64,000 nt of DNA from Kineosporia babensis (lineage in GTDB: Bacteria > Actinomycetota > Actinomycetes > Actinomycetales > Kineosporiaceae): assembly GCF_021129305.1 (NCBI RefSeq), contig NZ_JAJOMB010000001.1, positions 248,001 to 312,000 of the forward strand, written 5' to 3'. The first letter of the stretch is position 1. Each line of letters begins with the position of its first letter. A program made the position numbers and the translations under genes. Shown here piece after piece: positions 15,715 through 49,767 of the stretch. The notes under the pieces were generated by a model. That model did no database searches and was not told the origin of the DNA. It saw only the letters and a program-made list of their open reading frames with translations.

Positions 15715-17091
15715 GTGACCGACTCTGCCCGCACGTCCATCGTTCTTTTCACCAGAGACCTGCGGGTGCACGACAACCCGGCCCTGAACGCGGCCGCCCG
15801 CGAGGGCGCGGTGGTGCCGCTGTTCGTGCTCGACCCGAAGATCCTGAACGGCTCGTTCAACCGGCCCAACCGCGCCCGGTTCCTCCTCGAGAGCCTGACC
15901 GATCTGGCCGCGGCCCTGGAGAAGCGGGGCGCCGGGCTGGTGATCCGCCGGGGCCCGGTGGCCGAAGAGGTGGCCAAGCTGGCCAAGGCGGTGAAGGCGA
16001 GCTCGGTGCACATGGCCGGCGACGTGAGCGCCTTCTCGCACCGCCGCGAGGACGCCCTTCGGGAGGCTCTGGACCCGCTGGACTGTGAGCTGCACGTGCA
16101 CGACGACTCGTTGTTCGTGGTGCCGCCCGGGCAGGTCACGGCCACCGGCAAGACCCACATGTCGGTGTTCTCGCCGTACCACCGCAAGTGGGAGAAGGAG
16201 CACCGCCGGGCGCCGCTGAGCCCGCCCCGCAAGTTGTCACTGCCCTCCGGCGTCAAGACCGGGAAGCTGCCGACCGCCGGTGAGATCAGTAAGGGCAAGA
16301 CCGCGCCGCACATGTCCGAGGGTGGGGAAACGGCCGGCCGCAAGCTGTTCAGCAAATGGCTGGAGCAGCGGGCCGAGGGCTACGCCGACGATCATGACGA
16401 CCTGGCCGGCGACCGCACCAGCCGGATCTCGCCCTACCTGCACTTCGGCTGTCTGTCCCCGCTCGAGGTGGTCACCAAGGCCTGGGACATCGCCCCGGCG
16501 TTCACCCGGCAGATGGCCTGGCGCGACTTCCATGCTCAGGTGCTGGCCGCCAACCCCAGGTCCACCCGGGACGATCTGCGGCCCCGGCACGATCGCTGGC
16601 GCACCGGTAAGGACGCCGAGCGGGAGTTCAAGGCCTGGCAAGAGGGACGTACGGGCTGGCCTCTGGTCGACGCGTGCATGCGGCAGCTGGTGGACGAGGG
16701 GTGGATGCACAACCGGGGACGCCTGGTGGTCGGGCACTTCCTGTGCAAGACGCTCTACCTGGACTGGCGCTGGGGAGCCCAGTTCTTCGTCGACCACCTG
16801 ATCGACGGCGACACCGCGAACAACACGATGAACTGGCAGTGGGTGGCCGGGACCGGGACGGACTCCCGGTTCAACCGGATCCTGAGCGTCAGCTCGCAGG
16901 CCGAGCGCTACGACTCCAACGGCGACTACGTGCGGCGCTACGTGCCCGAACTGGCCGACGTGGACGGCCCGAAGGTGCACGCTCCCTGGAAGCTGCCCCC
17001 GGACGTCCGTAAGAAGCTGGACTACCCCGAACCAATTGTGGACGTCCGTGAGGGCAACGAGCGCTTTCTCGCCGCTCGCGGCAAGCGGTAA
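15715..17091 (+). CDS. phr: Deoxyribodipyrimidine photolyase (class I)
   Basis: This 458-residue photolyase uses blue light and reduced FAD to split cyclobutane pyrimidine dimers. The N-terminal Rossmann-like antenna domain starts at FTRDLRVHDNPAL. The FAD-binding C-terminal half shows HFGCLSPLEV, the signature GWPLVDACMRQLVDEG and WMHNRGRLVVGHFL, and the ending WQWVAGTGTDSRFNR. All point to CPD photolyase rather than a plant-type cryptochrome. The length is normal for class I enzymes. The GTG start has AAAGGG upstream. The TAA stop lies inside a strong hairpin. The gene is isolated; a BLUF photoreceptor gene lies elsewhere in the window. Confidence 0.93.
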   Translation: MTDSARTSIVLFTRDLRVHDNPALNAAAREGAVVPLFVLDPKILNGSFNRPNRARFLLESLTDLAAALEKRGAGLVIRRGPVAEEVAKLAKAVKASSVHMAGDVSAFSHRREDALREALDPLDCELHVHDDSLFVVPPGQVTATGKTHMSVFSPYHRKWEKEHRRAPLSPPRKLSLPSGVKTGKLPTAGEISKGKTAPHMSEGGETAGRKLFSKWLEQRAEGYADDHDDLAGDRTSRISPYLHFGCLSPLEVVTKAWDIAPAFTRQMAWRDFHAQVLAANPRSTRDDLRPRHDRWRTGKDAEREFKAWQEGRTGWPLVDACMRQLVDEGWMHNRGRLVVGHFLCKTLYLDWRWGAQFFVDHLIDGDTANNTMNWQWVAGTGTDSRFNRILSVSSQAERYDSNGDYVRRYVPELADVDGPKVHAPWKLPPDVRKKLDYPEPIVDVREGNERFLAARGKR

Positions 17092-47577: not shown

Positions 47578-47605
47578 GGGCAACCTTTGCTGGTTCTCAC
47601 CCGAC
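47578..47605 (+). promoter_or_regulatory. Predicted ECF promoter of the sigma-factor operon
   Basis: The sequence reads GGGCAACCTTTGC (47578-47590) with CGAC at 47602-47605, i.e. GCAACC-N16-CGAC, the shape of ECF -35/-10 elements. The identical 13-mer with the same spacing to CGAC recurs at 49280-49307. The start codon lies about 85 nt downstream. This suggests the sigma factor drives its own gene. Confidence 0.65.
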
Positions 47606-47689
47606 CTAGAGCGCGTACGGGAGGCGCCCGCGGGCATTCGGGCGCTTTTCGTACGGCTCTTGAACCAGGACAAGGAGACGGCTCCACGG

Positions 47690-48280
47690 ATGAGCAAACC
47701 CCCGGCGACGGGAAGCAGCGCGGTCCGGCCCGGCAAAGCGAGTGCCAAGGCCGAGTTCGAGGACTTCTTCCGTCGCCATCACCGTGAGCTGGCCCGGCTG
47801 GCGTACAGCATGACCGGTAACCGGACCGAGGCCGACGACGTGGTCGGGGAAGCCCTGGCCTCGGCCTGGGAACGCTGGGACCGGGTGCAGGCGGCGGACA
47901 GCCCGCTGGCCTATGTGCGCAAGATCGTGGTCAACCTGTCGGTGGAGCGCGTTCGGACGGCGGTCCGCGACCGGCAGCGGCATCGCCTGATGGCGCCGCT
48001 GACCCGGTGGTTCTACCACTCTCCGGATGTGGGTGGCGCGGTCGACCTACAGGCTGCGGTGCTTTCGCTCCCACCGGGACGCAGAGCCTGCGTGGTGATG
48101 CGCCACGTCCTCGACCTACCTGAGGAGGAGGTCGCCCGCACCCTGGGCATCAGCCTGGGGACGGTCAAGAGTCAGACCTCGAAAGGCCTTGCCCAGCTGC
48201 GCAGTCAGCTGGCCCCGGGCGAGCTGGCCGCTGCCGCGAGCAGTGCCCGAGCCACCCGGACGACCAGGAAGGAGGCGTGA
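47690..48280 (+). CDS. SigE-family ECF RNA polymerase sigma factor
   Basis: This 196-residue sigma factor has a basic N-terminal tail (1-20), region 2 (about 22-95: EFEDFFRRHHRELARLAYSMTGN, ADDVVGEALASAWERWD) and region 4 (about 125-185: LQAAVLSLPPGRRACVVMRHV, EEEVARTLGISLGTVKSQTSKGLAQLR). It matches the actinomycete SigE-like subfamily, which has a long linker between regions 2 and 4. ATG at 47690 has AAGGAG 12 nt upstream; a TTG ten codons earlier also is open. A single-helix membrane protein encoded 3 bp downstream is probably its anti-sigma or partner. Two promoter-like motifs sharing a 13-mer bracket the pair. Confidence 0.92.
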   Translation: MSKPPATGSSAVRPGKASAKAEFEDFFRRHHRELARLAYSMTGNRTEADDVVGEALASAWERWDRVQAADSPLAYVRKIVVNLSVERVRTAVRDRQRHRLMAPLTRWFYHSPDVGGAVDLQAAVLSLPPGRRACVVMRHVLDLPEEEVARTLGISLGTVKSQTSKGLAQLRSQLAPGELAAAASSARATRTTRKEA

Positions 48281-48283
48281 TCC

Positions 48284-49252
48284 GTGCCCGAGGATGAACT
48301 GCTCGAAGCTCTGCGTGGACTGGGTGCGGATCACGAGCCCGACGTGGCCGCGATCCGGCGCCGGATCGACGGTGAGCGCACCAACGTGGTGCCGCTGCGC
48401 CGTCGCCCGGACCAGCTGCCGCGGCGCCGTCCGGTACTGCTGTCGGCCGCGGCCGCGATCCTGATCGGCGGTGGGGTCACCGTCGCTGTGTCGCAGCTGG
48501 GCCCTTCCGAAAGCGGTACGCCGGCCAAGGATCTTCCCGTTCTGGTGCCGGCCGTACCCACCCCGAGCGACAGCCCGACCTCACCGACCCCCAGCCCCAG
48601 CCGTTCTGACCCGGAGGAGTCCCGGACCAAGCAGCCGGCCCCGGACGGGACCAGTAGCGCCAAGGGTGACGAAGAAACCGAGAGCAACCAGCCCAGGACA
48701 CCCTCGACCAGTTCCACCAAGAACGGGTCCGCGAACAGGCCCGCGGGTGAACAGGCGGCCTCCAGCACGGTCAGCGCCCTGGCCAACGGCCAGCAGATCG
48801 AACTGGGCGCGGCCAACGAGGACTGGCTGGCGATCGGCACCCGCAACGACATGAAGACGATCCGCAAGAAGGCCGCCTCGGCCGCGCCGCTGCTCAACTT
48901 CGTGGCGCCGGACTCCGCCGCCAGTGTCGACGGGCCGTTCCAGCTCTCGTTCAGCGGTGGCCTGCCCGAGCAGGACAACGAGGGCATCACCCGCTGGATG
49001 CAGACCAACGGAGCGGTGGTCACGGTGACCGCCTCGCCGCGGGCCCGCACGGTGACCCTGTACACCGGGAACGCGATGAACATCGTGGTCAAGGGCAAGG
49101 GGCTGGAGGATCACCGGGTGACGCTGCCCGACCAGGCCCCGGGGTTCGTCACCACCCTGCAGATCCCCTCGCACGGGGGTGACACCACGATCGAGCTGCA
49201 GAGCGGAAGGGGCCCGGTCCACCTGGTGGCAGCCACCGCCACCTCCGGGTAA
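48284..49252 (+). CDS. Membrane-bound partner (probable anti-sigma factor)
   Basis: This 322-residue protein has a cytoplasmic N-terminus of about 47 residues (LLEALRGLGADHEPDVAAIRRRID, an anti-sigma-like helix), one membrane helix (about 51-70), a disordered Ser/Pro/Thr spacer (about 75-165) and an outer domain (about 170-320) with beta patterns. It has no zinc-binding HxxxCxxC motif, so anti-sigma function is inferred from position and layout alone. GGAGG precedes the GTG start. It follows the sigma gene by 3 bp and ends 28 bp before the second promoter-like motif. Confidence 0.82.
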   Translation: MPEDELLEALRGLGADHEPDVAAIRRRIDGERTNVVPLRRRPDQLPRRRPVLLSAAAAILIGGGVTVAVSQLGPSESGTPAKDLPVLVPAVPTPSDSPTSPTPSPSRSDPEESRTKQPAPDGTSSAKGDEETESNQPRTPSTSSTKNGSANRPAGEQAASSTVSALANGQQIELGAANEDWLAIGTRNDMKTIRKKAASAAPLLNFVAPDSAASVDGPFQLSFSGGLPEQDNEGITRWMQTNGAVVTVTASPRARTVTLYTGNAMNIVVKGKGLEDHRVTLPDQAPGFVTTLQIPSHGGDTTIELQSGRGPVHLVAATATSG

Positions 49253-49279: not shown

Positions 49280-49307
49280 GGGCAACCTTTGCCCCGGGCC
49301 GGACGAC
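49280..49307 (+). promoter_or_regulatory. Second predicted ECF promoter
   Basis: An exact copy of GGGCAACCTTTGC (49280-49292) is followed at the same 16-nt spacing by CGAC (49304-49307). The match to the element before the sigma gene, including spacing, predicts transcription from about 49313-49316 under the same sigma factor. Confidence 0.65.
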
Positions 49308-49312
49308 TGATG

Positions 49313-49478
49313 CGCTGAGGAGATGCGGATCCGTCGGCCACGAGAGCCGCATCGAATCCTGCTCAGGGCGTCAGTTCCATGACTGAGGCCCTGGGCAGCC
49401 TGGTCCCGTCGAGTCCCTCCCTCGACGGGGCCCCTGGATCGCCTCTCTCCCGGCTGGTCGGAGCCGGGAGAGAGGTTT
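49313..49478 (+). ncRNA. Candidate ECF-dependent structured small RNA
   Basis: Four consecutive hairpins follow the predicted promoter. Hairpin 1: GATGCGG/CCGCATC (49322-49328 / 49347-49353). Hairpin 2: CAGGGC/GCCCTG with inner TCAGT/ACTGA (49364-49375 / 49382-49393) and a 6-nt loop. Hairpin 3: CCCGTCGAG/CTCGACGGG (49405-49413 / 49421-49429) with loop TCCCTCC. Hairpin 4: a 14-bp perfect stem (49442-49475) followed by TTT. The only start codon inside (49323) opens a 19-codon frame without a well-placed ribosome site. The C-rich loop could pair with Shine-Dalgarno sequences, as in other bacterial sRNAs; it recalls one of the two loops of actinobacterial 6C RNA. Transcription itself is unproven. 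Confidence 0.5.
49442..49478 (+). terminator. Intrinsic terminator of the candidate RNA
   Basis: A perfect 14-bp stem CCTCTCTCCCGGCT/AGCCGGGAGAGAGG with a 6-nt loop is followed by TTT. It lies between the anti-sigma gene and the next small gene. Confidence 0.75.
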
Positions 49479-49553
49479 CGCAGATTCTGCCGCAGATCGG
49501 GTGACACTCGTGCGGCCGGACATCCGCCCGCGCGCCCGCCGCCGATGCTTCGA

Positions 49554-49577
49554 TTCCCCCTTCGCACGAAGGGGGAA
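49554..49577 (+). promoter_or_regulatory. Hairpin sequestering the ribosome binding site
   Basis: TTCCCCCTTCG (49554-49564) pairs with CGAAGGGGGAA (49567-49577), realistically a 9-bp stem with a 6-nt loop. The right arm contains the AAGGGGG Shine-Dalgarno of the GTG at 49582. Translation may therefore depend on melting or on a competing RNA. Confidence 0.55.
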
Positions 49578-49581
49578 CGGC

Positions 49582-49767
49582 GTGACGGCGCTGCTGATGA
49601 GCGTGCTGTTCGGGGTCAGCAGTGCGCTGATCCTGACCGGCTTCCTGATCTGCGCGGAGTACCGCTGGGTGGGCCGCTGCGAGTATCGGCTGCGCTGCCG
49701 GTGGCGGACCTGGGACGCCTACTGGCCGATCGAGGTACCGGCCGAGCTGAGCGTCCCGTTGTACTGA
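49582..49767 (+). CDS. Small single-helix membrane protein
   Basis: From the GTG at 49582 (AAGGGGG upstream) this is a 61-residue protein: one hydrophobic helix (about 3-25, ALLMSVLFGVSSALILTGFLI) and a cytoplasm- or outside-facing tail rich in Arg, Tyr and Trp (EYRWVGRCEYRLRCRWRTWDAYW). An in-frame GTG at 49501 would add a basic leader without a ribosome site. It follows the candidate small RNA. Its start region is buried in a hairpin. Function unknown. Confidence 0.6.
   Translation: MTALLMSVLFGVSSALILTGFLICAEYRWVGRCEYRLRCRWRTWDAYWPIEVPAELSVPLY

Follow-up and report, generated by a model that had tools for sequence, protein, structure and literature searches.

A four-hairpin element in the 64,000-nucleotide stretch of Kineosporia babensis DNA analysed here (the window) was found, by comparison of sequences among six Kineosporia genomes, to be conserved in structure and in place and to share its promoter-like element with the adjacent gene for an ECF sigma factor. 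Our best reading is that this element represents an ECF-driven small RNA which is restricted to, and new in, Kineosporia, a genus of soil bacteria. We infer that it is transcribed, that this sigma factor controls it, and that it acts by pairing and repression; to the whole proposal, i.e., a free-standing RNA of approx. 165 nt with an ECF promoter of its own, made by the adjacent sigma factor and serving in trans, through hairpins 3 and 1, as the repressing arm of a regulon, we would assign a probability of roughly 0.55. The features of the locus are listed in Table 1, where G001 to G005 denote five Kineosporia relatives of the window's genome (G000).

Table 1. Sigma factor locus and candidate small RNA (positions in the window)
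Feature	Position	Strand	Remarks
Promoter-like element of sigma gene, GCAACC-N16-CGAC	47580-47605	+	In 6/6 Kineosporia; presumed autoregulation
ECF sigma factor, SigE family	47690-48280	+	TIGR02983, 161 bits (cut-off 141.55)
Presumed anti-sigma factor	48284-49252	+	Assigned by position and by conservation (59-69% identical to proteins of five relatives)
Promoter-like element of RNA, GCAACC-N16-CGAC	49282-49307	+	In 6/6 Kineosporia; spacing equal to that of the sigma element
Candidate small RNA, approx. 165 nt	49314-49478	+	Start inferred from promoter element
Hairpin 1, with invariant segment TCCGTCGGCCACGA	49317-49358	+	14/14 columns invariant in six genomes
Hairpin 2, apical part variable	49359-49398	+	CCUCC in G002-G005, not in window or G001
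Hairpin 3	49402-49432	+	Loop UCCCUCC at 49414-49420
Hairpin 4, terminator-like stem, then TTT (49476-49478)	49441-49478	+	20-nt invariant core
Small protein, family without Pfam match (window copy)	49501-49767		Apparently membrane-bound, by eye

Structure of the hairpin element

The predicted fold of positions 49314-49478 has a free energy of -107.3 kcal/mol, as compared to -75.0 ± 4.75 kcal/mol in 200 dinucleotide shuffles (z = -6.79), and none of the 200 shuffles was as low. When the + strand of the window was scanned in 166-base tiles (step 110, 30 shuffles each), the RNA stretch (z = -6.86) fell below all 581 tiles, the lowest of which reached -5.34. Other very stable tiles on this strand start at 17051 (z = -5.3), 40041 (z = -4.6) and 47521 (z = -5.2), the last of which overlaps the sigma mRNA leader. 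Opposite the RNA, the minus strand folds well too (z = -5.53), as is usual for inverted repeats; the promoter element and the T-run are present on the + strand only.

An earlier note on this DNA had described four stems plus a terminator at this place. The hairpins, which occupy positions 49317-49475, are indeed well formed, but there are four in all, including the terminator, together with a small nested stem in hairpin 1. The note was right about the 14-bp terminator stem followed by TTT, to which the MFE structure adds a fifteenth pair (G-U) that uses the first T, and the UCCCUCC loop that it placed in hairpin 3 was found there as well. The CCCUCC portion of this loop is kept in all six genomes and was unpaired in each of the six predicted ensembles, with a probability of at least 0.96 at every one of the six bases. 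The invariant core of hairpin 4 (CCCGGCTGGTCGGAGCCGGG, 49449-49468; 20/20 columns) has a single occurrence in the window when up to three mismatches are allowed. By eye, a loop-loop contact between hairpins 1 and 4 (CGGCC with GGUCG) also appears possible and may be due to chance; as both loops are invariant, this contact lies beyond a test by covariation.

Conservation and covariation within Kineosporia

When 58 genomes were searched at the DNA level (G000 and 57 relatives, with ranks according to GTDB; NCBI places Kineosporia in Kineosporiales), strong matches appeared in the five other Kineosporia genomes (E = 1.7e-46 to 3.7e-31); matches from the 52 genomes of other genera had E values of 0.0066 at best. 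The RNA is thus present in all six Kineosporia genomes examined, in each of which it lies between the anti-sigma gene and the small-protein gene; all five relatives retain the arrangement of the window (sigma, anti-sigma, RNA, small protein). The same four hairpins were obtained when each of the six sequences was folded alone. Paired changes on both sides of a stem were observed in 11 of the 54 base pairs, as compared to 4.8 ± 1.4 in shuffled data, and this number was reached in none of 500 shuffles. The earlier note had regarded the region as a structured element and had suggested a covariance search for compensatory changes among relatives; with the fold statistics given above, conservation in 6/6 genomes and these two-sided changes, the structured element is real, and changes of the kind sought do occur within Kineosporia.

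These counts rest on six sequences and on an alignment (A7) that was fitted to the model; an alignment made by MAFFT without the model gave 12 pairs with two-sided changes. The two-sided changes are found in hairpin 2 (3 pairs), hairpin 3 (2 pairs) and hairpin 4 (6 pairs), and there are none in hairpin 1. Overall, 98.8% of 322 cells were paired, 38-48% with slid partners. For one of the five covariation measures, i.e., further pair types, 17 of 500 shuffles reached the observed value. We also considered a reading frame in hairpin 1 and rejected it, as frames and lengths vary between genomes: the frame that begins with ATG in this hairpin encodes 19 aa in the window, 25 in G001, 229 in G002, 136 in G003, 20 in G004 and 63 in G005. 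Among the six genomes the structure is conserved and the reading frame is not.

The longest stretches of invariant columns in the six genomes are those in hairpin 1 (14 columns) and in the core of hairpin 4 (20 columns). Complete invariance of these two segments would also be expected if the RNA bound a protein through one of them, rather than pairing with ribosome sites. We consider such a protein-binding role rather unlikely, as the CCCUCC loop is conserved too and the invariance is seen among only six related sequences. Invariance of a loop is in any case weak evidence of function here, because there are only six sequences and two of them (G002 and G005) are close.

Promoter element and sigma operon

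The promoter-like element upstream of the RNA consists of GCAACC (49282-49287), 16 bases and CGAC (49304-49307), at the positions reported in the earlier note. GCAACC-N16-CGAC is present upstream of both the sigma gene and the RNA in all six genomes, i.e., in 12 of 12 places. A connection of the RNA to the adjacent sigma factor, as had been proposed from the window alone, is strengthened by this ECF-type element being common to the two in 6/6 genomes. Preceded by the type of promoter element that the sigma gene itself has, the RNA is a candidate ECF-dependent RNA, and this sigma factor presumably uses the element; the arrangement supports co-expression of the RNA with the sigma operon.

The sigma gene probably starts with the ATG at 47690 (the listed open reading frame begins with the TTG at 47660), and its product is 87-94% identical to those of the five relatives. 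Its mRNA leader (47606-47689 in the window) contains a conserved hairpin of its own, with an invariant CCGCGGGCATTCGG in all six Kineosporia genomes and two-sided changes in two pairs. The presumed anti-sigma protein has a hydrophobic segment, recognized by eye; it matched no Pfam family at E ≤ 1, and among NCBIfam models an anti-sigma model matched only below its cut-off (18.3 of 100 bits). Its structure model is weak (mean pLDDT 54) with a beta-rich C-terminal part, in which residues 241-320 reach pLDDT values of 71 to 90 in blocks of ten. No PDB structure matched this fold at E = 0.001, and among the 50 matches listed, some carbohydrate-binding modules stand beside unrelated beta folds; the fold being too uncertain, we did not call the protein a carbohydrate-binding module.

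Since the RNA would start approx. 60 nt past the stop codon of the anti-sigma gene (at 49252) and has a terminator-like hairpin at its end, the hairpins could instead form the 3' end of the sigma/anti-sigma mRNA, which they would protect and terminate, and any small RNA would be a processed piece of that mRNA. This explanation appears improbable in view of the complete ECF promoter element between the anti-sigma gene and the RNA in 6/6 genomes; moreover, a 3' end would presumably have no need of the invariant 14-nt segment in hairpin 1.

On the other side of the RNA, homologues of the small protein are encoded 3' of it in all six genomes, as would be expected if the hairpins formed a leader or attenuator of its gene, which begins at about 49501. 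The T-run behind hairpin 4 varies in quality: it is poor in G001 and G004, where it would permit transcription to read on into that gene, fair in G002, G005 and the window, and good in G003. In G003, however, the RNA and this gene are separated by a 279-aa open reading frame, so that the two are not tied together there, and a leader function is therefore unlikely. We favor an RNA that is made from its own ECF promoter and ends at hairpin 4.

Comparison with known small RNAs

No Rfam family reached its gathering score in the window, and eight weaker matches, among them minus-strand matches to sodF sRNA and Antizyme FSE and a match to the Magnesium-II riboswitch, were taken as chance. A 6C RNA is defined by two hairpins, each with at least six C in the loop; the Kineosporia RNA has one C-rich loop, CCCUCC. 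In the comparison with the Rfam 6C model (RF01066) that the earlier note had called for, the RNA turned out not to be 6C (19.7 bits, E = 2.2; cut-off 47). A divergent 6C RNA might still be considered, as hairpins 2-3, one of which carries the C-rich loop, can be aligned to the 6C model, but we regard this as very improbable given a score well under the cut-off and a separate 6C RNA above the cut-off elsewhere in all six Kineosporia genomes. Among the 13 genomes of the family, 11 have a 6C RNA above the cut-off elsewhere (the copy of G000 lies in locus L079). The two RNAs are alike as actinobacterial hairpin RNAs with unpaired, C-rich loops, and differ in that the Kineosporia RNA has a single CCCUCC loop, four hairpins and an ECF promoter element.

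Excerpts of PMC9130861 report Ms1, another widespread actinobacterial small RNA, for Kineosporia and describe a HAD hydrolase gene as its neighbor in most species. Ms1 was rejected on gene context, the neighbors of the RNA described here being the genes for the sigma factor, the anti-sigma factor and the small protein. In searches of the open-access literature for Kineosporia small RNAs and for actinobacterial or Streptomyces ECF-sRNA systems, no title among the matches listed dealt with this RNA; that it is unpublished is thereby unproven.

Distribution outside the genus

A covariance model of the RNA (R1) was run on 13 genomes of the family and matched all six Kineosporia genomes at E below 1e-33. 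In the seven other genomes of the family there was no convincing copy, the only matches being in G006 (E = 0.02) and G010 (E = 0.54). Weak additional matches of up to 28.9 bits were found inside Kineosporia. In a background test on the six true loci, 11 of the 17 matches obtained at E = 0.01 lay elsewhere or on the wrong strand and scored up to 28.6 bits, so scores under approx. 30 bits mean little. When R1 was applied to 12 sigma paralogue loci from other genera, the best match had 26.4 bits; it lies directly after an anti-sigma gene (L062), was absent in a repeat with default filters, and revealed no common motif by eye.

Among 394 genomes of the class, R1 found only G000 and G352 (31.9 bits), which is a weak negative result, obtained with stricter filters and few candidates scored per genome (seven in the cases listed); the G352 match is without the hairpin 1 sequence and mainly has the terminator stem in common. 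An exact pattern from hairpin 1 to hairpin 4, of a kind that overlooks diverged copies, matched 6/6 Kineosporia genomes and none of the 390 other genomes sampled from the order. A plasmid collection gave no match to the RNA at E = 1e-5. Overall, no convincing copy of the RNA was found beyond Kineosporia in the genomes sampled.

Candidate regulon of the sigma factor

The pattern GCAACCTT-N14-CGAC had 32 matches in the six genomes as compared to one for the reversed pattern, a control that leaves coding bias in; several of the 32 matches look intragenic. The sites in front of the sigma gene and the RNA account for 12 of them, and 18 of the other 20 were read. The element precedes the gene for a lectin/beta-helix protein at four sites (G002-G005), for a DUF6055 protein at three (G002, G003 and G005) and for a CBM2-cellulase at three (G003, G004 and G005; two identified by Pfam, the third only by its similar N-terminus); each of the remaining eight of the 18 either appears to be intragenic or is without a clear partner. 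By eye, the N-termini of all three kinds of protein resemble export signals. The lectin gene is found in 4/6 genomes at E = 1e-60, with the element 76-79 bases before the start of the best copy in each of the four; a second copy in G005 has no element. The DUF6055 gene is likewise present in four of the six genomes and is preceded by the element in three, the gene in G004 being without it.

Neither the lectin gene nor the DUF6055 gene was found at E = 1e-60 in G001 or in the window's genome, and the wider regulon is thus not seen in the latter. Four sites of a looser promoter pattern in G000, and a second site with a spacer of 14, had no convincing regulon gene; the looser pattern was swamped by coding-like matches and was left unused. 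An element like that of the CBM2-cellulase occurs in G000 (C23:287103-287128, L108) and in G001 (C11:4024-4049, L105) without being followed immediately by that gene, as though its loss or replacement had occurred there.

Taken together, the members of the putative regulon look like export-type, in part polysaccharide-related proteins, some of which apparently bind or degrade plant material. The earlier note had called the RNA stress-induced; nothing seen here supports this, and the other conserved sites precede export-type, partly polysaccharide-related proteins. As the fold of the anti-sigma factor is uncertain, a polysaccharide signal is suggested by the regulon only. It is possible, though doubtful, that the locus is a polysaccharide-sensing ECF switch, in which a surface-sensing anti-sigma factor would free the sigma factor to express itself, secreted enzymes for plant polymers and the RNA, and the RNA would silence competing mRNAs through its two conserved loops. 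A comparable system, likened here by description, is SigI/RsgI of Clostridium thermocellum, where excerpts of PMC10766802 describe a sigma factor that controls secreted polysaccharide enzymes and a membrane anti-sigma sensor; in Kineosporia the sensor domain is without a demonstrated carbohydrate-binding fold.

Proposed mode of action

In the reading that we prefer, release of the sigma factor, encoded approx. 1 kb upstream, by its anti-sigma factor would lead to synthesis of the RNA from a start some 5-10 nt past its own ECF promoter to an end at hairpin 4. The RNA would be made alongside the sigma operon and a few export-type, partly polysaccharide-related proteins, and would most likely act in trans as the repressing arm of the sigma regulon. 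By analogy with 6C/B11, we propose that repression is mediated by the exposed CCCUCC loop of hairpin 3, which may pair with G-rich ribosome-binding sites, and that hairpin 1 may provide a second, specific contact. The mycobacterial 6C RNA B11 is described, in excerpts of PMC10470900, as repressing by pairing of C-rich loops to ribosome-binding sites, and a CCCUCC loop that is both conserved and unpaired fits pairing of this kind. The loop matches nearly any strong Shine-Dalgarno site; when target pairing was assessed for the sigma leader only, no site was common to all six genomes.

Small RNAs (MicA, RybB and MicL) serve as the repressing arm of the sigma-E regulon of E. coli, according to excerpts of PMC8103513. 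The arm proposed for Kineosporia would be similar to these as far as descriptions can be compared; in Kineosporia the RNA adjoins the sigma operon, and the host is Gram-positive. In another actinobacterium, Streptomyces coelicolor, sigma-E binds near some small RNA genes, as described in part of PMC10771440; that system involves another sigma factor, and its sites have a -35 element like GGAACTT and mostly an 18-bp spacer.

Within 2 kb, the locus described here combines the RNA with the sigma gene and the promoter element of that gene, all of them conserved in six Kineosporia genomes. To our knowledge, few actinobacterial small RNAs have a known regulator. To the association of ECF sites with small RNAs reported for Streptomyces (excerpts of PMC10771440), the Kineosporia locus would add a case in which the candidate RNA lies within the sigma locus itself and the apparent regulon resembles one for polymer use.
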